NCBI RefSeq assembly: GCF_002161065.1
Contig: NZ_NFLV01000012.1
Span: forward strand, 1-64,000
Direction: 5' to 3'
DNA: 64,000 bases
DNA from: Eubacterium sp. An11
GTDB lineage: Bacteria; Bacillota; Clostridia; Lachnospirales; Lachnospiraceae
The position numbers and the translations under genes were made by a program. Shown one piece after another: positions 37,691 to 62,482 of this stretch (the stretch's first letter is position 1; each line of letters begins with the position of its first letter). Under the pieces are notes generated by a model that was not told where the DNA came from, did not search any database, and saw nothing but the letters and a program-made list of their open reading frames with translations.

Positions 37691-37739
37691 TTTAGCGGCT
37701 CAGGTGCCGCCTGCCGGGCTCCGAAAGGAGAACGGCAAA

Positions 37740-38126
37740 TTGAAAATCAATTACACATTTGCAAATGGTGAGACTTCTGACGTAGAGGTCAGAGAAGAAA
37801 TCGGAAACTTGATTCTGGATTCCAGACGGGAGGAAAGCAATCAGGATCGGAAAGAGCGGTACCATTGCTATTCCCTGGATGCGGCGGAATATGAAGGCGC
37901 GGATTATGCGGACGGCAGTACGCCGGAGACAGAACTTTTTCTGCAGCTTGAAAACCAGCGGATCAAAAAGGCGTTCGAGCAGCTCTCGGAAGTACAGCGG
38001 CGCAGGCTGCTGATGCTGGCCGAAGGGGTATCCCTTCGGGAGATCGCCCGCAGGGAGGGCAAGGATATCAAGTCCATCCGGGAATCCATCGAAGGGGCCA
38101 GAAAAAAGTTTTTGAAATATTTCTGA
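37740..38126 (+). CDS. Phage sigma-70-like regulator
   Basis: 128 aa from TTG 37740, with AAAGGAG 9 bp upstream; the in-frame ATG at 37626 would place the start before the terminator hairpin and is rejected. The N-terminus is MKINYTFANGETSDVEV; the C-terminal part is a sigma region-4 helix-turn-helix (AFEQLSEVQRRRLLMLAEGVSLREIARREG, then IRESIEGARKKFLKYF). First gene of the phage rightward string; likely directs phage early or middle transcription. Confidence 0.75.
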   Translation: MKINYTFANGETSDVEVREEIGNLILDSRREESNQDRKERYHCYSLDAAEYEGADYADGSTPETELFLQLENQRIKKAFEQLSEVQRRRLLMLAEGVSLREIARREGKDIKSIRESIEGARKKFLKYF

Positions 38127-47680: not shown

Positions 47681-47766
47681 GCCAAACCATGAAAACAAGG
47701 AGCCAATCAAAGACAATCTGTGAAAATCCGGGGGAATAAAAAAATCTTTGATTGGAGGTACCGGGT

Positions 47767-48228
47767 ATGAGCATTATCTGGAAGTATCTTGATAAACGGT
47801 CGGCGGCTGTGGACGCCTTGAAGGATTTCGGCAGCATGAAATTTATTATCGGCCACACGGATGACGAAATCAAAAGAGCCTATGAGAAAATGGAAGGCAT
47901 CAGCAGCCCGCAGCTTGACGGGATGCCCCGCAGCCATAATCCGCAGGCTTCAGAGGAGAGGATCGTCAAGGGCATTGAGGAGATCGATGTTTTGAAGGAA
48001 CGATACCGGCAGGCGGTGGAATACATGGCGTGGTTCGTCCCAGCCTGGAAAGAACTGACAGAGGATGAACGGTATGTGCTGGAAGCGTTCTATGGTGAGG
48101 ACAACCAGTACGGAAGTAATGCCGCTGACGATGTGGCAGACTATTTCCAGATTGAACGGGCTTCCGCATACCGCAGGAAGAACCGGGCGCTGGAGCGCCT
48201 GACCATCCTCCTGTTTGGGAAAGCCTGA
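47767..48228 (+). CDS. ArpU-like late-gene regulator
   Basis: 153 aa from ATG 47767, behind TTGGAGGTACCGGGT. Its C-terminal sigma region-4-like helix-turn-helix (AWKELTEDERYVLEAFYGE, then ADDVADYFQIERASAYRRKNRALERLTILLFG) fits the ArpU/DUF1492 group that switches on phage late genes. Position just before the packaging genes is as expected. The N-terminal part is helical. Confidence 0.7.
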   Translation: MSIIWKYLDKRSAAVDALKDFGSMKFIIGHTDDEIKRAYEKMEGISSPQLDGMPRSHNPQASEERIVKGIEEIDVLKERYRQAVEYMAWFVPAWKELTEDERYVLEAFYGEDNQYGSNAADDVADYFQIERASAYRRKNRALERLTILLFGKA

Positions 48229-48861: not shown

Positions 48862-49410
48862 ATGCCGACAAAATCCAACAACACAGGCGGGCGCGGCGGT
48901 GCAAGACCCGGTGCGGGAAGAAAAAAGTCTGCGGTCAAGGAAAAAGCCGAGAATGGCAATCCGGGCGGACGCAGGCTGGAAGTGCTGGATATTCCCGAAG
49001 TCGAGGGTGTCGATATGCCAAAGCCCCATGAATTCCTTTCTGCCGAGCAGCGTGACGGGAGTACGCTCCAGGCGGAGGAGATATACACGGAAACCTGGGA
49101 GTGGCTGAAAAAGGTGGGCTGTGCGGCGAAAGTGTCTCCCCAGCTATTAGAACGGTATGCTATGTGCTCCGCCCGGTGGATTCAGTGCGAGGAGATGACT
49201 AACCGTATGGGCTTCCTATCCAAGCACCCGACCACCCAGAAGCCAATCCCGTCTCCGTTCATCAATATCGGCATCAACTATATGAACCAGGCGGTGCGGC
49301 TCTGGAACGAGATTTTCCAAATCGTGAAAGAAAACTGCAGCACCGATTACGGGGAGGTTTCTCCCCAGGACGATCTGATGGAGCGCCTGCTCCGCGCAAG
49401 GAAGGGGTGA
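48862..49410 (+). CDS. terS: Phage terminase small subunit (P27-like)
   Basis: 182 aa from ATG 48862, behind GGAAAGGGGTGAG. It opens with the Gly/Arg-rich GGRGGARPGAGRKK tract typical of P27-type small terminases, then a helical core (YTETWEWLKKVGCAAKVSPQLLERYAMCSARW) and a C-terminal helix. Recognises the packaging site and recruits the large subunit, whose gene lies ~9 kb away at 58865. The accessory island between them is thus an insertion into the packaging module. Confidence 0.85.
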   Translation: MPTKSNNTGGRGGARPGAGRKKSAVKEKAENGNPGGRRLEVLDIPEVEGVDMPKPHEFLSAEQRDGSTLQAEEIYTETWEWLKKVGCAAKVSPQLLERYAMCSARWIQCEEMTNRMGFLSKHPTTQKPIPSPFINIGINYMNQAVRLWNEIFQIVKENCSTDYGEVSPQDDLMERLLRARKG

Positions 49411-49415
49411 AACCT

Positions 49416-50201
49416 ATGTTTGAAAAAGTAAATCCGTGCCACCCGGATAAGGTGGCGGACCGTATCGCCGGCGCTCTGGTGGATGCGGCGTATAGGAAAG
49501 AGGAAAATCCCAGGATCGCCGTGGAAGTCCTCATCGGCCACGGCGTCTGCCACATCATTGCGGAGAGTTCCGTACACATCCCGCTGGATGAGGTGGATGC
49601 CATTGTGAAGCGTATCGGCGGGAATCTGCACACAGATTATGTGGAAGTCCCGCAGGACGGACGCCTCGCCGATAACCAGGCGGAAGGAATCCGCTGCGGC
49701 GACAACGGTATCTTTAAGGGGATGCCGGTCACGGAGGAGCAGAAAGTTCTCTGTGAGATTGCAAAAAGTGTGTATCACACTTACCCCACAGATGGGAAGT
49801 ACATCATTGATGAAGCAAGGCTGACCCTCTGCCAGAGCCATGCCCCTGCCGCCAAGCTGCAGAAGCGGTATCCGGGCGCCGAGGTCAATCCCCTGGGCGA
49901 CTGGACAGGCGGCACGGATGTGGACGCAGGCGCCACCAATCGGAAACTGGGTAGCGACATGGCCGATTCGGTGACGGGCGGCGGGCTTCATGGGAAAGAC
50001 CTCTCCAAAGCGGATGTGTCTGTGAACATCTACGCTTGGCTCAAAGCGCAGGAAACCGGAAAGCCAGTGGAACTGTGCTGCGCCATCGGGGATGATACAG
50101 TGGACGGTGTTCCCTACGCTGAGATCGTGGAGACGGCCCGGAGATACATCCAGATCCTTGGCGGTTTTGAGAAATTTGCGGAATGGGGGCTGGTGCGATG
50201 A
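49416..50201 (+). CDS. Short phage-type S-adenosylmethionine synthetase
   Basis: Would make SAM, the methyl donor for the methyltransferases downstream. 261 aa against ~380-400 for cellular MetK. Seen: CHPDKVADRIAGALVDA (like GHPDK), EVLIGHG, CGDNGIFKGMP (in the place of GAGDQG), TGGTDVDAGATNRKLGSDM and GGGLHGKDLSKADVS (like the GGGAFSGKDPSKVDRS P-loop-like motif). The middle domain is largely missing. ATG 49416 follows the small terminase by 5 bp. It may be active as a compact enzyme or may bind SAM only. Confidence 0.85.
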   Translation: MFEKVNPCHPDKVADRIAGALVDAAYRKEENPRIAVEVLIGHGVCHIIAESSVHIPLDEVDAIVKRIGGNLHTDYVEVPQDGRLADNQAEGIRCGDNGIFKGMPVTEEQKVLCEIAKSVYHTYPTDGKYIIDEARLTLCQSHAPAAKLQKRYPGAEVNPLGDWTGGTDVDAGATNRKLGSDMADSVTGGGLHGKDLSKADVSVNIYAWLKAQETGKPVELCCAIGDDTVDGVPYAEIVETARRYIQILGGFEKFAEWGLVR

Positions 50202-50812
50202 AAACTACATCTCATTCGGAAGGAGCATTAATTTGGGTTGATGAACAGATGAAGACTCTCGGTGTGGATGATTATCATTTTTGCCCAGAGAACGATTGTT
50301 ATGTTTGTGATCGCTACGGGAACTTCTATTCAATTTGTCACAGACAGTATTCCAAGGCAGGAAATTTAGTTGAAAAATACAGGATAATGAAACTAAACGG
50401 ATCAATCGATAAGTATGGCTATGTTACGTATCGCATCACGATAGATGGAATCAAAAAACATCTTAAGGCACATAGAATGATGCTAAATGCGTGGATTGGA
50501 GAAAGGCAAAATCTTGTAGTAAACCATAAAGATGGCAACAAACAGAATAATGCCCTCTCAAATCTCGAATGGTGTACAGTTGCTGAAAATAATGCTCATG
50601 CGATTAGTACGGGATTGTTTGATCCGCATGCCGCCAAACATGAATTAGCCATACCGTTAGCAGACTGGCTCACATTATATATTCTGTATGAGCATTTCGG
50701 AATGTCTATGTGCGAATTAGGGCGGATAAATAATGTTTCACATTCGACTATTTCAAAAATCGTCCAAAGAATCCGTACAATTCTGCCGAAGGAGGTGCAG
50801 CATGGAACATAA
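50198..50812 (+). CDS. HNH homing endonuclease (NUMOD4-type)
   Basis: 204 aa. An N-terminal NUMOD4-like region (VCDRYGNFYSICHRQY, then GYVTYRI), an HNH core (LKAHRMMLNAWIGERQNLVVNHKDGNKQNNALSNLEW) and a C-terminal helix-turn-helix (MSMCELGRINNVSHSTISKIVQRIR). It is clearly more AT-rich than its neighbours, a sign of recent arrival. It is wedged between the SAM synthetase (4-bp overlap) and the ParB-methyltransferase (11-bp overlap) without breaking either. Confidence 0.88.
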   Translation: MKTTSHSEGALIWVDEQMKTLGVDDYHFCPENDCYVCDRYGNFYSICHRQYSKAGNLVEKYRIMKLNGSIDKYGYVTYRITIDGIKKHLKAHRMMLNAWIGERQNLVVNHKDGNKQNNALSNLEWCTVAENNAHAISTGLFDPHAAKHELAIPLADWLTLYILYEHFGMSMCELGRINNVSHSTISKIVQRIRTILPKEVQHGT

Positions 50813-52076
50813 AACAATTACAGAATTCCAGTTGGTTGATATTAATCGGCTTGTCCCATATATCAATAATGCAAGGACACACAGCCCGGAGCAGATAAAC
50901 AAGCTTCGGGCTTCTTTACGGGAGTTTGGATTTGTAAATCCGATTATTGTTGATAGAGATTACAACGTTCTGGCAGGACACGGACGTCTTATCGGCGCAA
51001 AGGCAGAAGGATACAAAGAAGTTCCGTGCGTTTTTGTGGATGAAATGACGGAAGCGCAGAAGAAAGCCTATATCATTGCGGACAACCGCATGGCGATGGA
51101 TGCCGGATGGGATGAGGAACTTCTGCGGGTGGAGATTGAGTCCTTGCAGGGTATGGACTTTGATCCCCTGCTGACCGGTTTTGATGAAAAGGAACTGGCA
51201 GACCTGTTTGGTACAGATGATGAGGCGAAGGAAGATGACTTCGATGTGGAAGCGGAACTGGAGAAGCCCTGCTTTTCCAAAGCAGGTGACATCTGGCGGC
51301 TTGGAAAACATACCGTCATCTGCGGGGATTCCACAGACCCGGAGACGTTCCGTTTGCTTCTTAGAGACACGAAGGTCAACCTGGTCTGCACGGACGCCCC
51401 GTATTTTGTTAAACTGGAGAGCCAGTCCGGGCGGATCGCAAACGACGATCTGGAGGATGCCCAGGCCTACGAGTTCCTCATGAAAGCATTTACGAACTTC
51501 AAAGATGCCATGGCCATTGACGCTTCTATCTATGAATTTTACGCCACTATGAAAGCGCGTGTGTTTTATGACGCCTTTGAGGATGCCGGGTTCAAGGTCG
51601 GCGCCGGACTCATCTGGAAAAAGCCCAGGGCTCCGCTGATGCGGACAGACTGGAAGTTCAACATGGAACCGATCATCTTTGGCTGGAGAAAGGATGGAAA
51701 GCACAAGTGGTATGGAGACCAGAAACAGAAAGCCGTCTTTGAATTTGATGGAATCAAGAATTCAAAAGAGGACGGACATGGTCATCCTTCCAGTAAACCT
51801 GTTCCTCTCATTGCGTATCTGATACAGCAAAGCACACAGGTAAATGGAATCGTACTGGATGGGTTTCTGGGTTCAGCATCCACGCTGATTGCCTGTGACC
51901 AGATCGGGCGGATCTGTTATGGGGTGGAACTGGAACCAAAGTTTGTAGATGTGGCAGTTATGCGTTACATGAACCAGCATGGCAACAGTGCGGATGGTGT
52001 GCTGTTGATCCGGGATGGAAAGGAACATACCTACGAACAGGCACTTGATATGGCGGAGGTAATTGCAGATGAGTAA
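50802..52076 (+). CDS. ParB-methyltransferase fusion
   Basis: 424 aa from ATG 50802, behind AAGGAGGTGCAGC. N-terminal ParB-like domain (residues ~10-100: YINNARTHSPEQINKL, NPIIVDRDYNVLAGHGR, VPCVFVDEMTEAQKKAYIIADNR). C-terminal amino-methyltransferase (N4/N6 type): motif IV-like TDAPYFV near residue 200 (DAPY where DPPY is usual) and motif I-like DGFLGSASTLIACDQIGRICYGVELEP. Such fusions modify phage DNA, often to evade restriction. SAM could come from the synthetase upstream. Two homing endonuclease genes flank it. Confidence 0.88.
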   Translation: MEHKTITEFQLVDINRLVPYINNARTHSPEQINKLRASLREFGFVNPIIVDRDYNVLAGHGRLIGAKAEGYKEVPCVFVDEMTEAQKKAYIIADNRMAMDAGWDEELLRVEIESLQGMDFDPLLTGFDEKELADLFGTDDEAKEDDFDVEAELEKPCFSKAGDIWRLGKHTVICGDSTDPETFRLLLRDTKVNLVCTDAPYFVKLESQSGRIANDDLEDAQAYEFLMKAFTNFKDAMAIDASIYEFYATMKARVFYDAFEDAGFKVGAGLIWKKPRAPLMRTDWKFNMEPIIFGWRKDGKHKWYGDQKQKAVFEFDGIKNSKEDGHGHPSSKPVPLIAYLIQQSTQVNGIVLDGFLGSASTLIACDQIGRICYGVELEPKFVDVAVMRYMNQHGNSADGVLLIRDGKEHTYEQALDMAEVIADE

Positions 52077-52686
52077 TGTAAAATATCGGTTTTCTGAAGA
52101 CGGCCTTGTAGCCTATGGGGAACTGGCAAGCGGTCAGATTTTTGTGATAGATGCCGATATGGTCGAAAAGATTCGTACAGTTAAATTTTATCTGGGCAGC
52201 AAAGGAAATGGCAGCCAATATTATGTGATTGACTGTAAGGGACGAACCCTCCATGATTATCTGTTTGAACACAGGCCAGGCTATGAAATAGACCATATAA
52301 ATCTGGACACATTTGACAATCGCAGGTGCAATATCCGTTATTGTACACATCAGCAGAACCAGATGAACCAGCCGCTGCAGAAAAATAATACTTCCGGTGT
52401 CAGTGGCGTGAGTTATTATCCGCCAAGGCGCAAATTCCGGGCAAGAATAAAAATCTGCCAGCAAGAGATACACCTTGGCTATTTTGATACCTTTGAAGAT
52501 GCAGTAAAAGCGCGGAATATTGGAATGCTTTGTATGTTTGGACAGTATGGGAGATATAACGATACTGGAAAAGCACCGGATTGGATTGAAAGAAAAGTCG
52601 CTGGAAAATGTGCGCGTTATGCGGAACTCTCGCAGAACAGCGCATTTTTTGATTTCTGGGATGGGGGTGTTGTCAATGATCCATGA
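52069..52686 (+). CDS. HNH-AP2 homing endonuclease
   Basis: 205 aa from ATG 52069, behind GGAGGTAATTGC. HNH core YEIDHINLDTFDNRRCNIR (about 78-96) followed by an AP2 DNA-binding domain (NTSGVSGVSYYPPRRKFRARI, then HLGYFDTFEDAVKAR). AT-rich compared with its neighbours. It overlaps the preceding methyltransferase gene by 8 bp and the following one by 11 bp. It probably targets the methyltransferase region of related phages. Confidence 0.88.
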   Translation: MSNVKYRFSEDGLVAYGELASGQIFVIDADMVEKIRTVKFYLGSKGNGSQYYVIDCKGRTLHDYLFEHRPGYEIDHINLDTFDNRRCNIRYCTHQQNQMNQPLQKNNTSGVSGVSYYPPRRKFRARIKICQQEIHLGYFDTFEDAVKARNIGMLCMFGQYGRYNDTGKAPDWIERKVAGKCARYAELSQNSAFFDFWDGGVVNDP

Positions 52687-54619
52687 CAAACTGACCCTCG
52701 GCAGCCTCTTTGACGGCTCCGGCGGCTTCCCCCTGGGCGGCTTGCTCTCCGGCATTACCCCCGTTTGGGCATCGGAGATTGAGCCGTTCCCCATCCGGGT
52801 GACCACAAAGCGGCTGCCTTTTATGAAGCATTACGGCGATGTCTCCCGGATGGACGGCGCAGAGGTAGAGCCGGTGGACATCATCACCTTCGGCTCGCCC
52901 TGCCAGGATATGAGCATTGCCGGGAAAAGAGCCGGGCTTGGCGGCTCACGGAGTAACCTCTTTTATGAGGCAATACGGATTGTAAAAGAAATGAGGTGTG
53001 CAACCGATGGAAAATATCCGAGGTATATCGTCTGGGAGAACGTCCCTGGCGCGTTCAGTTCCAACAAGGGCGCGGACTTCCAGTCCGTCCTCGAAGAGGT
53101 CTGCTCGGTCAAAGGATACGAAATTCATACTCCTCGACCTGAGAGATGGGCAAACGCCGGGGAGATCATGGCAGACGATTTCAGTCTCGCATGGCGGGTA
53201 TTTGATGCGCAGTACTGGGGAGTTCCCCAGCGCAGAAAACGTATCTACCTTGTCGCAGATTTTGCAGGCGGGAGTGCCGGAAAAATACTATTTGAGTCCG
53301 AAGGCGTGTCTGGGTATACTCCGCAGGGCTTCCGCCCGTGGCAAGGAACTGCCGGAACTTTTGCGGAAGGCGCTGGAGCGTCAGGCTGCGTCTGCTTAAA
53401 CGACCAGGGCGGCAGCCGCATGGATGTGACGGAGGACGTTGCGGCAACGCTCCGGGCAGAAAACCACGGGCATCCTCCCTGCGTGATGGGGGCAGCCGGT
53501 TTCTGTACCGAGCATTCCGCACAGGCCAGGGGCATCGGGTATGAGGAGGAGACCTCGCCTACTCTCCGTACCGGTACGGTGCCGGCGGCGGTTTATGAAA
53601 ACCATAGCCAGGACACCAGATACACCGGCCCGCTGGAGACAGCCCCCACGGTTATGTCTACCTATGGCACAGGCGGAAACAACCAGCCCTTTGTGGTGGA
53701 GACACCCAAGACGCTGAAGATCCGCTCTGGCTGTGAGGGCGGCGGCAAAGGTGCACTGATCCAGGATAACAAATCCGCTACGCTTGGCTGCAACAACGAC
53801 CAGACGGTATTCGTGCCGTTTGTGAAAGGTACCCGGCCCCACTCTCCCGATGAAGAACCGCAGTGGAAAGCCTCCGATGTGGCGAACACACTGAATACCT
53901 GCGATGTGGGCGAGACCCGGTGTAATGAACTGGCGGTCAAAGTATATGGCATCTGCTCTAAAGACAGCAACGCCATGAAATCCGAGAATCCCAAGAGCGG
54001 CTTCTACGAAGCGGAAACTTCCAGATGCCTGGATGCGAACGGCGGAAATCCTACCTGCAATCAGGGAGGCATGGCCGTGGTGGCCCTGCAGGGTTCCATG
54101 ATTGGCAGGGCGGAAAAGAACGGTCCCCAGGGCAGCGGCGTGAATGAGGATGTATCCTTTACGCTGGATGCTGCTGATCGTCACGCCGTAGCCTACTGCA
54201 TGACCACCGGCACTTACACCCAGATGCTTAAGGAACAGTCCCCGACCTTGATGGCAAGGGACTATAAAGACCCGCCTGTAGTGAACGAGACAGAGCCGGA
54301 ATACATTGTACGCAGGCTGATGCCCACCGAGTGCGCAAGGCTGCAGGGGTTCCCGGACTGGTGGTGCACCGGGCTTGAAACCGATGAGCCGTCTGAGGAG
54401 GAGATCGAGTTCTGGACAGAGGTGTTTGAGATACACCGCTCCGTCATGGGGAAGTCCTCCAGACCCAAGAGCCGGAACCAGATCATCAAGTGGCTGAAAA
54501 ATCCCCACTCCGACAGCGCAGAATATAAAATGTGGGGCAACGGCGTGGCGCTCCCCAACGTCTATTTCGTGCTTTCCGGCATTGTGTACTACTCACAATT
54601 CCCGGAATTTTTGTTGTGA
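52676..54619 (+). CDS. DNA (cytosine-5) methyltransferase
   Basis: 647 aa from ATG 52676; long in-frame text upstream belongs to the shadow of the homing endonuclease gene. C5 motifs in order: I LGSLFDGSGGFPLGG, IV FGSPCQDMSIAG (catalytic Cys in PCQ), VI WENVPGAF, VIII PQRRKRIYLVADF, IX-X PTECARLQGFPDWW and WGNGVALPN. Between VIII and IX there is a very long target-recognition region of ~300 residues containing short repeat-like elements (DVAATLRAENHG, SPTLRTGT, DVANTLNTCD). Modifies phage DNA against host restriction. Confidence 0.92.
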   Translation: MIHDKLTLGSLFDGSGGFPLGGLLSGITPVWASEIEPFPIRVTTKRLPFMKHYGDVSRMDGAEVEPVDIITFGSPCQDMSIAGKRAGLGGSRSNLFYEAIRIVKEMRCATDGKYPRYIVWENVPGAFSSNKGADFQSVLEEVCSVKGYEIHTPRPERWANAGEIMADDFSLAWRVFDAQYWGVPQRRKRIYLVADFAGGSAGKILFESEGVSGYTPQGFRPWQGTAGTFAEGAGASGCVCLNDQGGSRMDVTEDVAATLRAENHGHPPCVMGAAGFCTEHSAQARGIGYEEETSPTLRTGTVPAAVYENHSQDTRYTGPLETAPTVMSTYGTGGNNQPFVVETPKTLKIRSGCEGGGKGALIQDNKSATLGCNNDQTVFVPFVKGTRPHSPDEEPQWKASDVANTLNTCDVGETRCNELAVKVYGICSKDSNAMKSENPKSGFYEAETSRCLDANGGNPTCNQGGMAVVALQGSMIGRAEKNGPQGSGVNEDVSFTLDAADRHAVAYCMTTGTYTQMLKEQSPTLMARDYKDPPVVNETEPEYIVRRLMPTECARLQGFPDWWCTGLETDEPSEEEIEFWTEVFEIHRSVMGKSSRPKSRNQIIKWLKNPHSDSAEYKMWGNGVALPNVYFVLSGIVYYSQFPEFLL

Positions 54620-54627
54620 CATATTTT

Positions 54628-54683
54628 GTGCCGGATTCGCTTGCTATTTCCGCTGCTTAGAGTGATTAATGTAGTACCGAAAA
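54628..54683. repeat. Leader element, copy A (most diverged)
   Basis: GTGCCGGATTCGCTTGCTAT, then CTTAGAG and TACCGAAA, up to the ribosome site of the 54701 gene. It aligns with copies at 56124 and 58162 along ~55 bp. It lies between the C5-methyltransferase stop and the next gene. Confidence 0.5.
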
Positions 54684-54700
54684 ACAAGGAGGTACAGGGA

Positions 54701-55423
54701 ATGCGAATTGAATTTCACAGAACAGGAGCGGAAAGGAAGGCGCTGGTAACAGCCATCGGGGAAATCCTGGAGGTCAGGCCGCAGTACAAAGGAATGCCGA
54801 GCGCCGCTTACGAAATCGGCTACTTTACAGTAACGAAAGAAGGTACGCTGGAATTTGATGACCGGGCCGACAGCGGGGAGGTGGAAAACCTGCTGGAGCA
54901 GCTTGCTGACCGGGGGATCGTTGCAGCACCCGCAGAAATGGCACAGGCATGGCTTAACGCAAGGGCAGAGGAATTATCCAAGGCAAGTGAAAACGAGCCA
55001 CAGGAGGCGAACGTGGGGCTTACGGTGGAAATCCCGCTTGATAAGGTATCGTTGGGCAATCTTACTAAGCTGCTGGAAGCCAAGGGCAAACTGATACGGA
55101 AAGCTTTGGGGATCAGCGAGCTTTCCTTTGAAATCATGGAGGACCGGGTGGCGTTTCCTTGGTTCGAGGAACTGCCCGATTCCGATGCTGCTAAAGCCTA
55201 CACCCACTTCATTTCCGCACTCTGCGAGATGAGCAGGAATGCCAAGCGGGTAACAGCGACTGAGAAACCGGTGGAGAATGAGAAATACGCATTCCGCTGT
55301 TTTCTGCTGCGGTTGGGATTTATCGGCAGCGAATATAAAGCGGAGCGCAAGATCCTGCTGAAGAATCTGACCGGGTCCTCGGCTTTCAAGGATGGGGGTG
55401 TGAACCATGAAGTTTCCAAGTAG
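54701..55423 (+). CDS. Phage protein sharing its C-terminal module with the amidoligase
   Basis: 240 aa from ATG 54701, behind AAGGAGGTACAGGG. Residues ~1-90 are a mixed alpha/beta part (IGYFTVTKEGTLEFDDR), then a helical middle. The last ~70 residues, including YAFRCFLLRLGFIGSEYKA and NLTGSSAFKDG, closely follow the C-terminus of the amidoligase at 56224 (YAMRTWLLRLGFIGEEF, NLSGDTAF). Proteins like this have been loosely called virulence-related; no function is known. The shared module suggests joint action or a common partner. Confidence 0.65.
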   Translation: MRIEFHRTGAERKALVTAIGEILEVRPQYKGMPSAAYEIGYFTVTKEGTLEFDDRADSGEVENLLEQLADRGIVAAPAEMAQAWLNARAEELSKASENEPQEANVGLTVEIPLDKVSLGNLTKLLEAKGKLIRKALGISELSFEIMEDRVAFPWFEELPDSDAAKAYTHFISALCEMSRNAKRVTATEKPVENEKYAFRCFLLRLGFIGSEYKAERKILLKNLTGSSAFKDGGVNHEVSK

Positions 55424-55799
55424 AGAGATTGTGGAAAGCATCCGCCGGGAATATCCCGCCGGCACCCGTGTGGAATTGGTGCAGATGGATGATGTGCAGG
55501 CTCCGCCTGCCGGTACAAAAGGCACCGTCAAAGGTGTGGATGACACCGGTTTCCTCCTTATGCGCTGGGATAATGGCAGTGGCCTGAACGTGGTCTATGG
55601 GGAGGATATTGTCCGGAAAATTCCTGTGGTCAAAACAGTTTGTTATGGCAGAACCAAAGAATGGTACAGCCGTGCGGAGGCAGAGCAGTTTTTCTTTCAC
55701 GCAATGATGAACTCCGAAGGCAGTGAGCAAAATCGGTACATGAAAATATATACGGAATTGAAATTGGGGAAAGCATTCTGTACGGATGAGGAGGAATGA
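55407..55799 (+). CDS. DUF4314-domain protein
   Basis: 130 aa. The first ~70 residues (REIVESIRREYPAGTRVELVQMDD, GTKGTVKGVDDTGFLLMRWDNG, LNVVYGED) match DUF4314, a small SH3-like fold of phage and ICE proteins. The rest is a short helical tail with a CYGRTKEWYSRAEAEQFF segment. It overlaps the preceding gene by 17 bp. Role unknown. Confidence 0.8.
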   Translation: MKFPSREIVESIRREYPAGTRVELVQMDDVQAPPAGTKGTVKGVDDTGFLLMRWDNGSGLNVVYGEDIVRKIPVVKTVCYGRTKEWYSRAEAEQFFFHAMMNSEGSEQNRYMKIYTELKLGKAFCTDEEE

Positions 55800-55802
55800 G
55801 CA

Positions 55803-56084
55803 ATGGAACAGGATATTTTGGAGCAGCTCTATTTTGGCAGGATTGTGCCATGGGAGAACCGGAATGATAAGACTCCTGAGATGGAACAATGCAGTGAGCA
55901 GGTTTATCGGGATACAGAGCATTTGACACAGCTACTGGATGAGGACGGGAAAAAGATCCTTGAGCGGCTCATGGATAACCGTTCTGAACTGGAAAGCCAT
56001 CAGATCCTGGAGGGCTTTAAGGATGGGTTCCGGCTGGGGGTTCAGCTTACGGCAGCAGGTTTTGGAAATAAAAATAAGCTGTAA
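55803..56084 (+). CDS. DUF6809-like small protein
   Basis: 93 aa, all-helical, acidic. LEQLYFGRIVPWENR at the start, then LLDEDGKKILERLMDNRSELESHQILEGFKDGFRLGVQL. This pattern is common in Clostridia phages and mobile elements (DUF6809). It starts 4 bp after the DUF4314 stop. Similar in outline to the protein at 35124. Function unknown. Confidence 0.7.
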   Translation: MEQDILEQLYFGRIVPWENRNDKTPEMEQCSEQVYRDTEHLTQLLDEDGKKILERLMDNRSELESHQILEGFKDGFRLGVQLTAAGFGNKNKL

Positions 56085-56123
56085 AACACACAAATTCTGC
56101 CCGGAATCATTGTGTAATATATA

Positions 56124-56187
56124 GTGCGGAATTAACTTGCTATTATCCTCTTTTAGAGCGAATATGTGTACACCGAAAGGGAAAACA
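56124..56187. repeat. Leader element, copy B
   Basis: GTGCGGAATTAACTTGC, then TTTTAGAGCGAATATGT and ACACCGAAAGGGAAAACA. The last two strings are identical in copy C. It lies 37 bp before the amidoligase start, whose ACGGAGG ribosome site follows. Confidence 0.65.
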
Positions 56188-56223
56188 CACAGCCGCAGGG
56201 CAGAAAAAACGGAGGATTTCAGA

Positions 56224-57174
56224 ATGAATGAGAAAACAGCAAGGCAGATTGCAGAGATGAAAACGCAGACTATCGGGGTTGAGGTGGAAATGAACAATAT
56301 CACCCGGCAGAAGGCTGCGAAGGTTGCCGCCACCTACTTCGGCACAGGCAGATATGAGAACACTGCCGGCCGCAACGGGTACAGCACTTGGAGCGCATGG
56401 GACAGTCAGGGACGCGAGTGGAAATTCCAGAAGGACGTTTCCATCGCAGGACCGGAAGAACAGGAATGCGAACTGGTCACCCCGATCCTGACCTACGGCG
56501 ACATCGAAACCCTGCAGGAGCTTTGCAGGCAGCTCAGACATGCCGGAGCGAAAAGCGACGCCAGCCGTGGCTGTGGAGTTCACATCCACATCGGAGCGCA
56601 GGGGCACACGCCGCAGAGCCTTCGGAACCTTGCCAATATTATGGCGAGCCATGAAAGCCTGATCGCCGAGGCACTGAAACTTGACCGGGGCCGCATGAAC
56701 CGTTACTGCCGCACGGTAGACCCACAGTTTTTGGAGCAGGTCAATCGCAGGAAGCCCCGCACAATGTCACAGCTTGCAGACATCTGGTACAACAGCAACG
56801 GCGCAAGCTACGGAAGAAACCACCATTACAACGACAGCCGCTACCATATGCTCAACCTCCACGCCACCTTTACCAAAGGCACGGTCGAGTTCCGGCTCTT
56901 CCAGTTTGATGAGCCGACAGCCGAGCGCAGGGGCGGCATCCACGCGGGGCAGCTTAAAAGCTACATCCAGCTTTGCCTGGCCTTAAGCCAAATGGCAAAG
57001 GATGTGCGGACGGCAAGCCCTAAGCCCCAGCAGAACGAGAACCCCAAATACGCCATGCGCACCTGGCTCCTCCGCCTGGGCTTCATCGGCGAGGAGTTCG
57101 CAACGGCCAGAGATTTTCTGACCCGCAATCTTTCTGGGGACACAGCCTTCCGGCACGGTAGAGCAGCCGCTTGA
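56224..57174 (+). CDS. Phage amidoligase (glutamine-synthetase-like fold)
   Basis: Amidoligases join a carboxyl and an amine with ATP, for example attaching amino acids or amines to peptides or wall parts. 316 aa from ATG 56224, behind ACGGAGG. Motifs: GVEVEM (18-23), ELVTPIL (83-89), CGVHIHI (117-123), RYHMLNLHA (206-214), GTVEFRLF (219-226); the acidic and His residues fit metal and ATP sites. Residues ~245-311 are a helical C-terminal module shared with the 54701 protein. A cyclotransferase-like gene 290 bp downstream is the partner known for phage amidoligases. The substrate is unknown. Confidence 0.88.
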   Translation: MNEKTARQIAEMKTQTIGVEVEMNNITRQKAAKVAATYFGTGRYENTAGRNGYSTWSAWDSQGREWKFQKDVSIAGPEEQECELVTPILTYGDIETLQELCRQLRHAGAKSDASRGCGVHIHIGAQGHTPQSLRNLANIMASHESLIAEALKLDRGRMNRYCRTVDPQFLEQVNRRKPRTMSQLADIWYNSNGASYGRNHHYNDSRYHMLNLHATFTKGTVEFRLFQFDEPTAERRGGIHAGQLKSYIQLCLALSQMAKDVRTASPKPQQNENPKYAMRTWLLRLGFIGEEFATARDFLTRNLSGDTAFRHGRAAA

Positions 57175-57199
57175 AGGACACGCAGGAGTTAGCCTCCTG

Positions 57200-57254
57200 C
57201 CACCTTACCCTTGACCGCCTCGGCGGTCTTAAGGTGGTAGAAGGGTGATCCCTT
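57200..57254 (+). promoter_or_regulatory. Nested hairpins between amidoligase and the next gene
   Basis: CCACCTTA (57200-57207) pairs with TAAGGTGG (57230-57237) around an inner perfect stem GACCGCC (57213-57219)/GGCGGTC (57222-57228). A second small hairpin AAGGG/CCCTT (57241-57254) follows. No T-run. It may tune expression of the small genes relative to the amidoligase. Confidence 0.55.
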
Positions 57255-57272
57255 CGGAAAGGAGATGCGGAT

Positions 57273-57461
57273 ATGCATTTGACAATTAAGGATACTGCGA
57301 AAATGAGGAGAATGGGATATACCGTTAAGGCGATGTACGAAACGGCGAAAGGCATCCCGTTCCTAAAGTATTTCATGGACAAGGCAGAAATGGACAGATT
57401 TACCGCAAATGCGGAAGAAGAGGGTTCAAGGCTGGTGGCTTGGGCAGAAAGGGGTGCTTGA
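57273..57461 (+). CDS. Small protein of the amidoligase cassette
   Basis: 62 aa, helical and slightly basic at the start (MHLTIKDTAKMRRMGYTVKAMYETAKGIPFLKYF), ending AEEEGSRLVAWAERGA. ATG 57273 lies behind AAAGGAG. It sits between the amidoligase and the cyclotransferase-like gene, 4 bp before the latter. No family recognised; it could be the peptide substrate or an adaptor, but nothing in the sequence proves it. Confidence 0.55.
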   Translation: MHLTIKDTAKMRRMGYTVKAMYETAKGIPFLKYFMDKAEMDRFTANAEEEGSRLVAWAERGA

Positions 57462-57464
57462 AAG

Positions 57465-57935
57465 ATGAAGAGATATTACATTGCTTATGGAAGTAACCTC
57501 AATGTTGGTCAGATGCGGATGCGCTGCCCGCACGCCACAATCCTCGGTACGGCAAATCTTAAGGGCTGGGAACTGCTTTTTAAGGGGAGTAAGACCGGCT
57601 CCTACCTGACCATCGAGAAAAGCGAAGGCGGTACGGTCCCTGTGGTGATCTGGGAGGTGACGGCGACCGATGAAGCCGCCCTCGACCGCTACGAGGGATT
57701 CCCCAATTTCTATTACAAGCGGGACATTAAACTTCAGTACAAAGGCATCCGCACGGGGAAGCGCAGGACGGTGACGGCCTTTGCCTACATCATGCATGAG
57801 GACAGGCCGATTGGCATTCCGAGTAATTTCTACATGAGGACTTGCTTGGAAGGGTATGATACCTTCTGCTTCGACAAAAACATTCTGGTTGACGCTTACG
57901 ACAAATGCAGGGAGGTATGCGGATATGAAGGATAA
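57465..57935 (+). CDS. Gamma-glutamylcyclotransferase-like (AIG2/GGCT) protein
   Basis: 156 aa. Opens with YYIAYGSNLN (YGSN at 8-11, the substrate loop) and carries RYEGFP with the catalytic-type Glu 77. The GGCT fold splits gamma-glutamyl amines, releasing 5-oxoproline. In phages such genes travel with amidoligases, which suggests that one adds and the other trims a gamma-glutamyl group. It starts 4 bp after the small gene and overlaps the next gene by 11 bp. Confidence 0.88.
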   Translation: MKRYYIAYGSNLNVGQMRMRCPHATILGTANLKGWELLFKGSKTGSYLTIEKSEGGTVPVVIWEVTATDEAALDRYEGFPNFYYKRDIKLQYKGIRTGKRRTVTAFAYIMHEDRPIGIPSNFYMRTCLEGYDTFCFDKNILVDAYDKCREVCGYEG

Positions 57936-58125
57936 TGTGATCCGGATAGCGGTTTGCCCACTGTGTGGCAGAACCTACCATGGCGTTCCGGCGCTTTCAC
58001 GGGAGGACAACAAAACGTTCATCTGCCCAGACTGCGGCACCCGGCAGGCGCTCCAGTCCATCGGTGTGGAGCCATCTGAACAGGAACAGATCATCGAGAC
58101 GATCCACCGTCATACACAGGAGTGA
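57925..58125 (+). CDS. Zinc-ribbon protein
   Basis: 66 aa from ATG 57925, within the end of the cyclotransferase-like gene. Two CxxCG knuckles (CPLCGRTYHGVP and CPDCGTRQALQSIG) make a compact zinc ribbon; a short helix follows. Frequently seen as small phage proteins of unknown role. Overlap with the cyclotransferase-like gene suggests coexpression. Confidence 0.7.
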   Translation: MKDNVIRIAVCPLCGRTYHGVPALSREDNKTFICPDCGTRQALQSIGVEPSEQEQIIETIHRHTQE

Positions 58126-58161
58126 TATACACAATTTGTTCCTCCCATCTTTGTGCAGATT

Positions 58162-58227
58162 ATGCTCAGAATTGACTTGATAATATGTGCTTTTAGAGCG
58201 AATATGTACACACCGAAAGGGAAAACA
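58162..58227. repeat. Leader element, copy C
   Basis: TGCTCAGAATTGACTTG, then TTTTAGAGCGAATATGT and ACACCGAAAGGGAAAACA as in copy B. It lies just before the ribosome site (ACGGAGG) of the 58249 gene. Confidence 0.65.
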
Positions 58228-58248
58228 AAGAAAACGGAGGACGCCAAC

Positions 58249-58440
58249 ATGAAAGCCTACAACGCCTTTAGAACACAGGTTGAGAACATCAAGACTGAGA
58301 AGGACCTCAAAGATGCCCACATTAGCATTTGCCGCGCATACAGCGCCTACCGCATCAGCTACGAGCAGTTCATGGAGCTCCGGAAGATGATGATTTCCAA
58401 GAGAGCCGAAAAAGGCTTTTCTTGGGGCAAGGGCATTTAA
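58249..58440 (+). CDS. Small helical phage protein
   Basis: 63 aa from ATG 58249, behind ACGGAGG. Predicted two or three helices (FRTQVENIKTEKDLKDAHISICRAYSAYRISYEQFMELRKMM), net basic. No family recognised. It is the third gene in this island that follows a copy of the leader element, so it may belong with the amidoligase cassette in regulation. Confidence 0.55.
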   Translation: MKAYNAFRTQVENIKTEKDLKDAHISICRAYSAYRISYEQFMELRKMMISKRAEKGFSWGKGI

Positions 58441-58470
58441 AAAACGGCGCAGGACACGGAGGGTAAAATC

Positions 58471-58758
58471 ATGACGATCAACGAAGCGATGAAAAAGTAC
58501 AGACTGCCGAACCCCACAACAACCGAGGATTTGGAGATGCGGTTCTCAGGCATGGACGGCAAAACGCTGAATTTTGGAGACAAGGTTCTTCTTGCCGGAT
58601 ACTACTACAACGGGAGAAACAAGCCCTGCTACTTCGGCGCAGCATACGAGTTCCTTACCGATGATCACACCTGCGAAGGGATGATCGGGCTGAGAGCAGC
58701 CAGCGGGGTTGAGTTCGAGGATGACGGCCACGCCATCGCCTGGGCGATGCAGCAGTAA
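58471..58758 (+). CDS. Hypothetical phage protein
   Basis: 95 aa from ATG 58471, behind CACGGAGGG. Mixed alpha/beta (MTINEAMKKYRLP, then LNFGDKVLLAGYYYNGR and GHAIAWAMQQ). No known motif. Located between the accessory island and the large terminase gene. Function unknown. Confidence 0.55.
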   Translation: MTINEAMKKYRLPNPTTTEDLEMRFSGMDGKTLNFGDKVLLAGYYYNGRNKPCYFGAAYEFLTDDHTCEGMIGLRAASGVEFEDDGHAIAWAMQQ

Positions 58759-58864
58759 AGAAAACCAACAGAGAACGAGCCGCATGGCTCTTTCTCTCGT
58801 ACAGAACCATTTTGAAAGTCGCAGCAATGCGGCTTATTTTTATGCCATTCGGGAGGTGGTGTCT

Positions 58865-60466
58865 ATGCGAAAGCTGAAGAAATACAAGCCCACAAAGTTC
58901 ATGGCGAAGACCTCGCACTACGATAAAGACGCCGCCGATTATGCGGTGATGTTCATCGAGTCTCTCTGTCATACAAAGGGTACCTGGGCGGGAAAGCCCT
59001 TTGAACTGATCGACTGGCAGGAACAGATCATCCGTGACCTGTTCGGCGTGTTAAAGCCTAATGGCTACCGTCAGTTCAATACAGCGTATATCGAGATCCC
59101 CAAGAAACAGGGCAAGTCGGAACTTGCCGCCGCTGTGGCGCTCCTGCTCCTGTGTGGGGACGGCGAGGAACGGGCCGAGGTGTATGGGTGTGCCGCCGAC
59201 CGTAACCAGGCAAAGATTGTGTTTGATGTGGCTGTGGATATGGTGCGGTTCTGCCCAGCGCTTTCCAAGCGGGTAAAGATCCTGGAATCCCAGAAGAAGA
59301 TCACCTATCTGCCCACCAATTCCTCCTATCAGGTGCTGTCGGCAGATGTAGCCAACAAACATGGTTTCAATACACACGGTGTGATTTTTGATGAGCTGCA
59401 TACCCAGCCCAACCGAAAGCTCTTTGACGTCATGCTCCAAGGCTCCGGGGACGCCAGGATGCAGCCGCTGTATTTTCTGATCACCACAGCAGGTAACGAT
59501 ACCAACTCTATCTGTTACGAGGTACACCAGAAAGCTATCGACATAGCGGAAGGCCGGAAGGTTGACCCCACTTTTTACTCTGTCATTTACGGAGCGGCAG
59601 AGGATGAGGATTGGACAGACCCCAAGGTGTGGAAAAAGGCCAATCCCTCCCTCGGTATCACGGTGGGCATCGACAAGGTCAAAGCGGCCTGTGAATCTGC
59701 GAAACAGAACCCCGGTGAGGAGAACGCTTTCCGGCAGCTCCGGCTGAACCAGTGGGTGAAGCAGTCCGTCCGCTGGATGCCGATGGACAAGTGGGACGCC
59801 TGCGCCTTCCCGGTTTCTGAGGACGATCTGGAGGGGCGCGTCTGCTACGGCGGTCTGGATTTGTCCTCCACTACGGACATCACGGCTTTCGTGCTGGTGT
59901 TCCCGCCGCTGGATGAGGAGGATAAATACTACATCCTGCCATACTTTTGGATACCGGAAGAAACTCTCGACCTTCGTGTCCGGCGAGACCATGTCCCCTA
60001 TGATCTGTGGGAGCGCCAAGGGACGCTGATGACTACCGAGGGCAATGTGGTTCATTACGGCTATATCGAGAAATTCATCGAACAGTTGGGCGAGAGGTTC
60101 AATATCCGGGAAATCGCCTTTGACCGCTGGGGCGCTGTGCAGATGGTGCAGAACCTGGAGGGCATGGGCTTTACGGTAGTCCCATTCGGGCAAGGCTTTA
60201 AGGATATGTCCCCGCCGACCAAGGAACTGATGAAGCTGGTGCTGGAGGAGAAAATTGCCCACGGCGGACACCCAGTGCTGCGGTGGATGATGGATAACAT
60301 CTTCATCCGTAGCGACCCGGCAGGCAATATCAAAGCGGACAAGGAAAAATCCACAGAGAAAATTGACGGCGCAATCGCTACCATCATGGGGCTTGACCGT
60401 GCGATCCGATGTGGAAATGATATGGGAGCTTCGGTTTATGACAGCCGGGGCCTTTTGTTTATCTGA
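58865..60466 (+). CDS. terL: Phage terminase large subunit
   Basis: 533 aa from ATG 58865, behind GGGAGGTGGTG. ATPase: Walker A-type PKKQGKSELAAA (about 79-90), Walker B VIFDELHTQ (about 173-181). Nuclease: GLDLSSTTDITAF and later acidic residues (IAFDRWGAVQM, STEKIDGAIATIMG). Cuts and pumps DNA into the HK97-type head. The small subunit gene is 9.5 kb upstream, because the modification and amidoligase island lies between them. Confidence 0.93.
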   Translation: MRKLKKYKPTKFMAKTSHYDKDAADYAVMFIESLCHTKGTWAGKPFELIDWQEQIIRDLFGVLKPNGYRQFNTAYIEIPKKQGKSELAAAVALLLLCGDGEERAEVYGCAADRNQAKIVFDVAVDMVRFCPALSKRVKILESQKKITYLPTNSSYQVLSADVANKHGFNTHGVIFDELHTQPNRKLFDVMLQGSGDARMQPLYFLITTAGNDTNSICYEVHQKAIDIAEGRKVDPTFYSVIYGAAEDEDWTDPKVWKKANPSLGITVGIDKVKAACESAKQNPGEENAFRQLRLNQWVKQSVRWMPMDKWDACAFPVSEDDLEGRVCYGGLDLSSTTDITAFVLVFPPLDEEDKYYILPYFWIPEETLDLRVRRDHVPYDLWERQGTLMTTEGNVVHYGYIEKFIEQLGERFNIREIAFDRWGAVQMVQNLEGMGFTVVPFGQGFKDMSPPTKELMKLVLEEKIAHGGHPVLRWMMDNIFIRSDPAGNIKADKEKSTEKIDGAIATIMGLDRAIRCGNDMGASVYDSRGLLFI

Positions 60467-60483
60467 AAGGACGGTGATTCGAT

Positions 60484-61845
60484 ATGGGTATCTTTTCCGG
60501 GCTTTTCCGTTCCAGGGATAAGCCCCAGAACCGCACTACGGGCAGCGCTTACAGCTTTTTCTTCGGAGGAAGCACTGCGGGCAAGAGGGTGAATGAACGG
60601 TCTGCTATGCAGATGACGGCGGTGTATTCCTGCGTCCGCATCCTGGCAGAAGCAGTGGCAGGTCTTCCTCTGCACCTTTACCACTATAAGGAGGACGGAG
60701 GCAAGGAGAAAGCCATTGACCATCCGTTGTATCTGCTCTTGCATGACGAACCAAACCCGGAGATGAGTTCCTTCGTGTTCCGGGAGACGCTCATGACCCA
60801 TCTTTTGCTGTGGGGCAATGCTTATGCACAGATTATCCGCAACGGAAAAGGTGAAGTGATTGCTCTCTATCCGCTGATGCCGGACCGGATGACGGTGAAT
60901 CGTGACAGCAATGGACAGCTTTATTACGAATACACTGTCAGCATGGATGATGCGCCTACGGTCAAAGGCAGTCTTGTCCGGCTGAATCCTTCCGATGTGC
61001 TGCATATCCCAGGGCTTGGTTTTGACGGGCTGGTGGGGTATTCCCCTATCGCTATGGCAAAGAACGCCATCGGTATGGCGATTGCCTGTGAGGAATATGG
61101 GGCGAAGTTCTTTGCAAACGGTGCAGCCCCTGGCGGTGTCCTGGAGCATCCGGGTACCATCAAAGACCCGCAGCGTGTCCGGGAAAGCTGGCAGTCCACC
61201 TTTGGAGGCAGCGGTAATGCTAATAAGATCGCTGTCTTAGAGGAAGGAATGAAATATACGCCGATTGGCATCTCGCCGGAACAGGCACAGTTTTTGGAAA
61301 CCAGAAAATTTCAAATCAATGAAATTGCTCGAATTTTCCGGGTGCCGCCCCACATGGTGGGCGACCTGGAGAAGTCGAGCTTTTCTAATATTGAGCAGCA
61401 GTCTCTGGAGTTCGTGAAATACACGCTGGAACCCTGGCTGGTGCGATGGGAGCAGTCCATTCAGAGGATACTGCTTTCCCCGGAGGAAAAGAAGAGTTAT
61501 TTTGCCAAGTTCAATGTGGAGGGGCTGCTCCGGGGCGATTATGCCAGCAGGATGACCGGCTACGCTACGGCAAGGCAGAACGGCTGGATGAGCGCCAACG
61601 ACATCCGGGAACTGGAGAACATGGACCGCATCCCTGCCGAGGAAGGCGGAGACTTGTACCTGATCAATGGCAATATGCTCCCGCTTGGAAACGCCGGGGC
61701 TTTTGCAAATACCGAAGTTAGCGATGACGGAAAGGAGGAAAACCCCGATGAAGAAGTTCTGGAAGTGGAAGAACCAGGCGGAAACAGCTCCGGCGGAACG
61801 GACGCTGTTCCTGAACGGCACCATCGCCGAGGAAAGCTGGTTTGA
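60484..61845 (+). CDS. HK97-type portal protein
   Basis: 453 aa. The N-terminal part (AYSFFFGGSTAGKRVNERSAMQMTAVYSCVRILAEAVAGLPLHLY) and the stem helix region (FLETRKFQINEIARIFRVPPHMVGDLEKSSFSNIEQQ) are the classic HK97 portal signatures. Forms the ring through which DNA enters. Its 3' end overlaps the protease gene by 98 bp, an unusually long but common overlap in this phage group. Confidence 0.93.
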   Translation: MGIFSGLFRSRDKPQNRTTGSAYSFFFGGSTAGKRVNERSAMQMTAVYSCVRILAEAVAGLPLHLYHYKEDGGKEKAIDHPLYLLLHDEPNPEMSSFVFRETLMTHLLLWGNAYAQIIRNGKGEVIALYPLMPDRMTVNRDSNGQLYYEYTVSMDDAPTVKGSLVRLNPSDVLHIPGLGFDGLVGYSPIAMAKNAIGMAIACEEYGAKFFANGAAPGGVLEHPGTIKDPQRVRESWQSTFGGSGNANKIAVLEEGMKYTPIGISPEQAQFLETRKFQINEIARIFRVPPHMVGDLEKSSFSNIEQQSLEFVKYTLEPWLVRWEQSIQRILLSPEEKKSYFAKFNVEGLLRGDYASRMTGYATARQNGWMSANDIRELENMDRIPAEEGGDLYLINGNMLPLGNAGAFANTEVSDDGKEENPDEEVLEVEEPGGNSSGGTDAVPERHHRRGKLV

Positions 61846-62482
61846 CGATGACGTCACGCCGCAGCTTTTTAAAGAGGAACTGATGGGCGGAAGCGGAGAC
61901 ATCACGGTCTGGATCAACAGCCCCGGTGGCGACTGCGTAGCGGCTGCCCAGATCTATAACATGCTGATGGACTATCCGCACAATGTCACGGTCAAGATTG
62001 ACGGCATCGCAGCATCCGCTGCAAGCGTGATTGCTATGGCAGGGACCCGTGTGCTGGTATCGCCGGTGTCCATGATGATGATCCACAATCCTATGACCGT
62101 GGCCATGGGTGATACCGCAGAAATGCAGAAAGCCATCGAGATGCTTTCAAGCGTGAAGGATTCCATCATCAACGCCTATGAGATCAAGACCGGGCTGTCC
62201 CGTGCCAAGCTGTCCCACCTCATGGATGCGGAAACCTGGATGGACGCGAACAAGGCGGTGGAGCTTGGCTTTGCCGATGATGTCCTGGCACGGGCGGAGA
62301 TTCCGGAGGACATGGAGCCGCCTGCGGTGTCCATGCTGTATTCCAAAGCAGCTGTGGTCAACTCCCTCGTGGATAAGATCGCAGCCAAGTGCAGGACTAA
62401 CCCTAAGAAAATTGAAGATTCCAAACCCAAGGGCCGCTCCGTAGACAGTCTCTATGAGCGGCTCAATCTTTTGAAAAATTAA
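61748..62482 (+). CDS. ClpP-like head maturation protease
   Basis: 244 aa from ATG 61748, behind AAAGGAGGAAA. ClpP fold: WINSPGGDCVAAAQIYNML, catalytic Ser in GIAASAASVIAMAG, catalytic His in MMMIHNPM, with an Asp further on. It replaces the S78 protease found in other HK97-like phages. It should trim scaffold or capsid N-termini; the capsid protein downstream has a ~100-residue charged N-terminal delta-like region fitting removal. Confidence 0.92.
   Translation: MKKFWKWKNQAETAPAERTLFLNGTIAEESWFDDDVTPQLFKEELMGGSGDITVWINSPGGDCVAAAQIYNMLMDYPHNVTVKIDGIAASAASVIAMAGTRVLVSPVSMMMIHNPMTVAMGDTAEMQKAIEMLSSVKDSIINAYEIKTGLSRAKLSHLMDAETWMDANKAVELGFADDVLARAEIPEDMEPPAVSMLYSKAAVVNSLVDKIAAKCRTNPKKIEDSKPKGRSVDSLYERLNLLKN

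Follow-up and report, generated by a model that had tools for sequence, protein, structure and literature searches.

In this window, a stretch of 64,000 nucleotides of Eubacterium sp. An11 (contig NZ_NFLV01000012.1), we found a string of four same-direction open reading frames (ORFs) at 56224-58125 that encodes an amidoligase, a 62-amino-acid protein, a protein of the gamma-glutamyl cyclotransferase (GGCT) fold and a small zinc ribbon, as assigned with Pfam and PHROGs. With moderate confidence, we read this string as a late-expressed gamma-glutamyl-type writer and eraser pair, accompanied by a dead partner, served by a shared activator and subject to RNA control of the eraser. A preliminary description of the window had recognized the complete amidoligase, the GGCT/AIG2-type protein with YGSN and Glu 77, the zinc ribbon and their tight arrangement within a phage, all of which held up, with prophage genes lying on both sides of the cassette. 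A pseudo-amidoligase, a repeated promoter-like element and an RNA leader are additions to that description. The features that carry the argument are the following (window coordinates):

47752-48228, forward strand: candidate late activator between helicase and TerS; best family phrog_8834 (unknown), also phrog_36 and phrog_248 (transcription regulators).
54594-54703, forward strand: third, weaker copy of the promoter-like element (31.7 bits), ahead of the pseudo-amidoligase gene and overlapping the end of a methyltransferase gene.
54701-55423, forward strand: pseudo-amidoligase ("virulence-related" type), by sequence and motif comparison related to the amidoligase and devoid of its catalytic motifs.
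56073-56226, forward strand: promoter-like element of the amidoligase unit, with half-sites, -35, 17-nucleotide spacer and -10.
56224-57174, forward strand: amidoligase (Amidoligase_2, a ligase of the glutamine-synthetase superfamily), the putative writer; PF12224, E 5.9e-59; phrog_2443, E 1.5e-118.
57175-57263, forward strand: structured RNA leader with hairpins P2 (57213-57228) and P3 (57240-57255).
57229-57239, forward strand: near-invariant leader stretch UUAAGGUGGUA, between P2 and P3.
57256-57263, forward strand: Shine-Dalgarno-like leader stretch GGAAAGGA, after P3.
57273-57461, forward strand: gene of the 62-amino-acid protein, between leader and GGCT; no family in Pfam or PHROGs.
57465-57935, forward strand: GGCT-fold gamma-glutamyl cyclotransferase, the putative eraser; PF06094, E 1.7e-12; phrog_2520, E 2.5e-52.
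57925-58125, forward strand: small zinc-ribbon protein, whose gene overlaps the stop of the GGCT gene; phrog_2945, E 3.2e-24.
58114-58251, forward strand: second copy of the element (106 bits), ahead of a 63-amino-acid gene, the Nmad4 gene and the terminase operon.

The alignments indicate that both enzymes retain intact catalytic residues. The amidoligase matches PF12224 with 200 bits (cut-off 22) over profile positions 2-244 of 245, and the GGCT matches PF06094 with 48.4 bits (cut-off 22.8), which answers the profile search that the preliminary description had proposed. Residues E20, E22, H120, H122, H208, N211, H213, E222 and R224 are unvarying in 38/38 aligned amidoligases, all of which carry the ExE, HxH, H..N.H and ExR motifs of Amidoligase_2; likewise, Y8-G9-S10-N11 and E77 are unvarying in all 31 aligned GGCTs, the window protein having YGSN at residues 8-11 and Glu77. 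We take these invariant residues to have the catalytic roles familiar from the two families, and the loss of active-site residues that had been considered earlier did not appear. The predicted model of the amidoligase (predicted local distance difference test, pLDDT, 89.9; predicted template modelling score, pTM, 0.89) was compared with the PDB using Foldseek; the first 26 rows are all chains of the glutamine-synthetase superfamily, four of which pass E 0.001. Among them are a bifunctional glutathione synthetase of the GshF type (3ln7, E 4e-5), 1tt4 (E 1.9e-4), which is presumably YbdK-like, and glutamine synthetase (8fbp, E 8.4e-4), with gamma-glutamylcysteine synthetase (gamma-GCS; 2d32, E 0.0057) and Dop as further matches. 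The amidoligase sequence profile gave no match in the PDB apart from one chance hit at E 0.77. Human GGCT (2pn7, E 3e-13) is a closer match to the GGCT profile than chain 1vkb is (E 0.0022). Collectively, the amidoligase is probably an ATP-dependent former of amide bonds, and the GGCT probably releases 5-oxoproline from gamma-glutamyl compounds.

This arrangement resembles the gamma-glutamyl cycle, which likewise combines a ligase of the glutamine-synthetase superfamily with a GGCT, the model matching GshF and gamma-GCS and the GGCT matching the human enzyme. In contrast to that cycle, the present pair is phage-borne and includes an amidoligase of another family (PF12224). In the host genome we found neither a second Amidoligase_2 nor a second GGACT, and no match to GCS2 or Glu_cys_ligase, two gamma-GCS families; among the families searched, therefore, only the phage supplies both halves.

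To examine the linkage of the pair, we took 80 of 403 amidoligase matches in viral sequences and 80 of 266 in genomes. Of these 160 amidoligase-seeded loci 133 were distinct; they represent the nearest relatives, at about 79% identity and up. The GGCT lies downstream of the amidoligase in 112 of the 114 testable distinct loci, bearing out the conserved gene order on which the preliminary description depended, and the zinc ribbon is linked to the amidoligase in 111/114. Furthermore, a survey seeded with the GGCT found the amidoligase upstream in 34 of the 35 loci with room for it. The earlier suggestion that the 62-amino-acid protein is the substrate or adaptor found no support in this comparison, as its gene is present in only 1/114 testable loci; we found it in this genome and in one near-identical viral contig, and the protein has no match in the phage collection and no family in Pfam or PHROGs. 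This distribution rules out a general role as substrate or adaptor. A role as a ribosomally synthesized peptide on which the amidoligase acts would fit the place of its gene, directly between ligase and GGCT and after the leader, but with a single occurrence and no relative in the phage collection we give this idea next to no chance.

The family phrog_2443, which PHROGs names amidoligase enzyme, hits both the amidoligase and the protein encoded at 54701-55423. The Pfam domain Amidoligase_2 is missing in 38 of 39 members of this second group, the remaining one matching weakly (E 0.0059) and the window member having none, and each of the four catalytic motifs occurs in 0/39 (a looser E[FL]R is present in 3/39). 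A C-terminal segment is common to both proteins (46% identity over 70 amino acids). With this shared tail removed, the cores still align (hhalign probability 94.4%, E 9e-8), while 60 column-permuted versions reached at most 2.3%; when the core is divided, its second part, amidoligase residues 95-165, accounts for most of the signal (92.7%), against 18.9% for the N-terminal part by itself. The model of the pseudo-amidoligase (pLDDT 90.4, pTM 0.57) has, by eye, an order of strands and helices that parallels the one in the amidoligase model, minus about 60 residues. These comparisons indicate that the pseudo-amidoligase shares the descent of its fold core with the amidoligase and is catalytically dead. 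It is probably a partner or regulatory subunit, acting via the common C-terminal segment. Its gene lies upstream of the amidoligase in 97/107 loci.

Next, we consider the interval between the amidoligase and GGCT genes, which usually measures 80-120 nucleotides and folds strongly. Its layout consists of hairpin P2, the near-invariant stretch UUAAGGUGGUA, hairpin P3 and GGAAAGGA, followed by the start codon. A GGTGGTAGA-like core is present in 119 of 136 distinct gaps; leaders for the later analyses were picked by this core, and its constancy in them is thus by selection. For 70 nonredundant leaders the mean folding z-score is -3.3 (40 shuffles each), with 50 below -2, the window leader having -45 kcal/mol and z -4.1. 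The P3 stem is above threshold in 62/68 leaders compared with 6.5% when tails are shuffled, is formed by 28 distinct stems and stands 3 nucleotides from AAGG in 49/65; P2 was detected in 65/68. The covariation score of a 27-row alignment is 0.191 versus 0.098 for shuffled alignments, with 0 of 500 shuffles reaching it. It also exceeds the score of every slid alignment, narrowly at +3 (0.183), and 79% of the cells are paired against at most 56% in slid versions. Furthermore, a blind search of viral contigs for a 22-nucleotide piece of the leader returned 101 stretches, and among the best 80 of these the GGCT lies downstream in 79/79 testable cases and the amidoligase upstream in 79/79, the contigs overlapping those of the earlier loci sets. 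At one locus (L058), the core motif is kept next to a GGCT that has no amidoligase beside it, and the RNA therefore goes with the GGCT.

Rfam covariance models gave nothing at E 1 over 50000-62000, and at E 10 over 57100-57520 two microRNA models only, far under the gathering score (E 3.3 and 6.5). The leader is thus a structured RNA that is not in Rfam. The stretch UUAAGGUGGUA resembles the T-box core, AGGGUGGNA; unlike T-box leaders, the RNA has no T-box or other bacterial Rfam match and no stem I was seen. The main text of a microbiome RNA survey (PMC8040213) names neither amidoligase nor cyclotransferase, and its supplements may hold this RNA unnamed.

An intergenic RNA of this kind might be a mere hairpin for messenger RNA processing or stability, with no regulatory role. 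Between the genes of one transcript, such hairpins commonly serve to shield the message or to guide its processing; however, a near-invariant stretch between two hairpins, together with the usual 3-nucleotide distance from P3 to AAGG, exceeds what simple stability demands, and we give this explanation an appreciable but minority chance. A bolder proposal is that the leader is a cis-regulatory RNA of a new class that controls the eraser, perhaps as a riboswitch or as a sensor of the module's product, with the ligase in complex with its dead relative. We regard this proposal as tentative and on balance doubtful. If it were true, the phage would run a feedback-controlled cycle of amide tagging during late infection of gut Clostridia.

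The amidoligase gene is preceded by its own promoter-like element, in which a left half-site at 56087-56093 (one mismatch to TACACAA) and a right half-site TTGTGTA at 56110-56116 are followed by a -35 (TTGCTA, 56137-56142), a 17-nucleotide spacer and a -10 (GAATAT, 56160-56165). A 59-nucleotide repeat, 86% identical, stands ahead of both the amidoligase and the next operon, and the 27-nucleotide core of the element has two occurrences in the host genome at up to 3 mismatches. For a DNA profile, 13 of the 131 distinct upstream regions were set aside by eye; trained on the other 118, it gave 745 matches of at least 8 bits across 225 overlapping loci and 0 in reversed sequence. The element lies ahead of the amidoligase in 126/131 amidoligase-seeded loci, a count that is in part built in, most of these regions having served to train the profile. 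Weaker copies lie ahead of both the pseudo-amidoligase gene and the recombinase/integrase, with 4 copies in the prophage itself, 4 in PV036426 and 3 in PP197246. A shortened copy stands directly before the serine recombinase/integrase (G000:C9, 78588-78650; PV036426, 52272-52337; PP197246, 17840-17900), which would tie integrase expression to the same control.

The -35 and -10 pair fits 286 of 362 distinct elements, every spacer being 17 nucleotides although 15-19 were permitted. In 194 nonredundant elements, TTGTGTA (up to one mismatch) lies 9 (21 elements), 19-20 (87) or 30 (3) nucleotides from the -35, and TACACAA (up to one mismatch) 32 (17), 42-43 (91) or 53-54 (22). These distances step by about 10.5 base pairs, as expected of a protein bound on one face of the DNA. 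The scrambled-motif control for these counts is weak, with totals of mean 51 and highest 163 versus 176 observed and a top bin of 48 versus 55, and there are extra clusters of single-mismatch half-sites at 52-53 (20) and 62-63 (10). We predict that the half-sites are of activator type and the element promoter-like. In an early set of loci an upstream ORF, M[CY]TPKGKT, appeared inside the element; it was dropped since its ATG is not kept in wider loci. At four loci (L104, L115, L174 and L052) another repeat, GTTATCG...GTTATC, was seen by eye in place of the element about 100 nucleotides upstream of the amidoligase, perhaps the site of another activator. The first gene past the second element (58249-58758 in the window) also differs among phages, encoding 63 amino acids, Nmad4, 105 amino acids or 59 amino acids, as if the repeated element marked a point of cassette exchange.

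A candidate for the activator is encoded between helicase and TerS, its matches to regulators being phrog_36 (E 3.5e-12) and phrog_248 (E 1e-7). Where the element stands ahead of the amidoligase, 9 of 10 records contain a regulator of the phrog_36 type; where it is missing from that position, 0 of 8 do (Fisher p = 4e-4). This comparison pools two queries, includes the second query's own record (the window protein alone finds 1/18) and draws on records that are in part fragments and on lineages that are not independent. Against the 5 clean element-less records alone, p is 0.002. A sigma-like protein at 37626-38126 was rejected as the shared factor, since just one of 18 records gave a match, and a weak one. 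In Gram-positive phages, late transcriptional regulators act from a similar gene position, and Ltr, RinA and Alt use repeats upstream of the late promoter, according to the available part of PMC13123087. Here, unlike in those systems, the half-sites are inverted and set at helical steps, several copies exist, with the amidoligase unit and the integrase among the genes they precede, and the regulator gene lies apart from the repeats.

Under our reading, the amidoligase would use ATP to join a carboxyl, the gamma-carboxyl of glutamate in view of its likeness to gamma-glutamylcysteine synthetase, to an amine, and the GGCT would strip the gamma-glutamyl group as 5-oxoproline. The dead relative would steer or regulate the ligase through the common C-terminal segment, and the structured RNA would set the amount of GGCT relative to ligase. 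The pair would form its own transcription unit, turned on in lytic growth by a phage activator that would also drive the terminase operon and the integrase. The enzyme families, their intact catalytic residues, the gene linkage, the dead relative, the repeated promoter-like element and the structured RNA are observed; we infer the two reactions, the late timing, the identity of the activator and the RNA control of the GGCT.

Several observations weigh against this reading. The RNA core motif is missing from 17/136 gaps and the element from 5/131 loci, and in three of the eight records that have no element ahead of the amidoligase (L052, L055 and L115) the element occurs elsewhere in the stretch, with no regulator found. 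A distant clade (L064-L066, 38-39% identity) keeps the gene pair and lacks the element; a 1-base overlap of the two genes leaves L065 and L066 no room for a leader. In FP_Taranis an amidoligase is present and no GGCT was found within the 9.4 kb examined. The model of the pseudo-amidoligase has no significant Foldseek match in the PDB. Finally, the argument that the amidoligase is more conserved than the terminase large subunit (TerL), which would have pointed to a host target, was rejected by comparing identities: median identity in GGCT-seeded loci is 77% for the amidoligase, 69% for the GGCT and 82% for TerL, and the amidoligase is the more identical protein in only 6/20 GGCT-seeded and 0/7 element-seeded loci, TerL usually being the more conserved.

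Since its control is common to the packaging genes, the pair points to a target met late, either a component of the virion or of packaging or a host amine (protein, wall peptide or polyamine), and the data choose neither. Modification of a virion or packaging protein during assembly would agree with the promoter-like element being the same as that of the terminase operon, with TerL lying downstream in 80/84 loci and with the high conservation of both amidoligase (medians 77-82%) and TerL (82-88%) in these loci; we know of no modified virion protein, the distant clade has the pair without the element, and we assign this target a low probability. Modification of the wall or surface for superinfection exclusion has been proposed for phiEco32, and such a role is printed for this enzyme type in the literature available to us. 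The element shared with packaging genes suggests lytic late expression, however, whereas exclusion by a prophage usually needs expression in the lysogen, and none of the four cassette proteins has a wall-binding domain in Pfam, which makes this target unlikely as well. The neighbourhood also invites the idea that the pair acts on DNA or nucleotides, the amidoligase attaching an amine or amino acid to a base that the neighbouring methyltransferases and the Nmad4 protein produce, and the GGCT trimming it. Upstream of the amidoligase, a ParB-type N4/N6 methyltransferase occurs in 77/84 loci and a C5 methyltransferase in 61/84; Nmad4, on the downstream side, is present in 29/84. Yet most loci are without Nmad4, the methyltransferase genes lie upstream, beyond the proposed amidoligase transcription unit, and the scanned window proteins, which cover part of the prophage, include no oxygenase, hydroxymethylase or other enzyme that would equip a base with a carboxyl or an amine; we judge this idea quite improbable.

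The combination of amidoligase and GGCT in phages of Firmicutes is already in print, in C. clostridioforme LM41 phi13, Terrisporobacter TPDSL_ph1 and C. difficile Tn6164 (PMC11318856, PMC11253131, PMC3485107, each available in part). These reports follow Iyer 2009 in proposing functions from the analogy with phiEco32. The printed order in Tn6164 is the same as here (DNA methylase, virulence-related, amidoligase, AIG2/GGCT, terminase), and in TPDSL_ph1 we saw the same gene pair directly in the sequence. The available parts of these reports make no mention of a promoter element, an RNA leader or a dead relative, and our literature searches, which reached sources in part, surfaced no report of the leader or the dead relative. 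The first "amidoligase" printed for TPDSL_ph1 (PP197246.1 CDS0065; L221:6527-7255, a row of alignment A2) is a pseudo-amidoligase; the first of its "two amidoligases" is thus the dead relative, which corrects the published annotation. For LM41, two ORFs are also listed as amidoligase in the same reports. While phage amidoligases are annotated in many genomes, the literature examined, as far as accessible, names a proven target in none. A defined unit of ligase, dead partner, RNA leader, GGCT and zinc ribbon in gut phages, together with its predicted promoter and candidate activator, makes timing, stoichiometry and substrate directly testable.

The remaining features around the cassette are:

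55407-55799, forward strand: DUF4314 protein (PF14192), in 89/107 loci.
55803-56084, forward strand: DUF6809 protein (PF20648), in 20/107 loci.
58471-58758, forward strand: Nmad4-domain protein (PF18756), weakly linked.
58865-60466, forward strand: gene of TerL (PF20441, PF03354), first of the packaging and structural genes.

On its upstream side the prophage has polymerase, helicases and TerS, the nearer neighbours of the cassette being TerS, an S-adenosylmethionine-synthetase-like gene, the ParB-type methyltransferase, the C5 methyltransferase, the "virulence-related" protein, DUF4314 and DUF6809. Downstream follow the Nmad4 gene, terminase, portal, a Clp-type protease and capsid genes, with two serine recombinases on this side at 78.6-82.2 kb of the contig. 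PADLOC gave no match to the cassette apart from a weak one to the zinc ribbon (E 0.0073). Two of the four phage records inspected carry the label Ca. Heliusvirales; neither amidoligase nor cyclotransferase occurs in the available part of the description of Ca. Heliusviridae (PMC9226167). The gene at 49407-50201, similar to the N-terminal part of S-adenosylmethionine synthetase (PF00438, phrog_1569), adjoins phage methyltransferases. Between two methyltransferase genes lies an HNH/AP2 gene (52063-52686), perhaps a homing endonuclease, with relatives at 32-99% identity in loci L022, L028, L047, L189 and L220.

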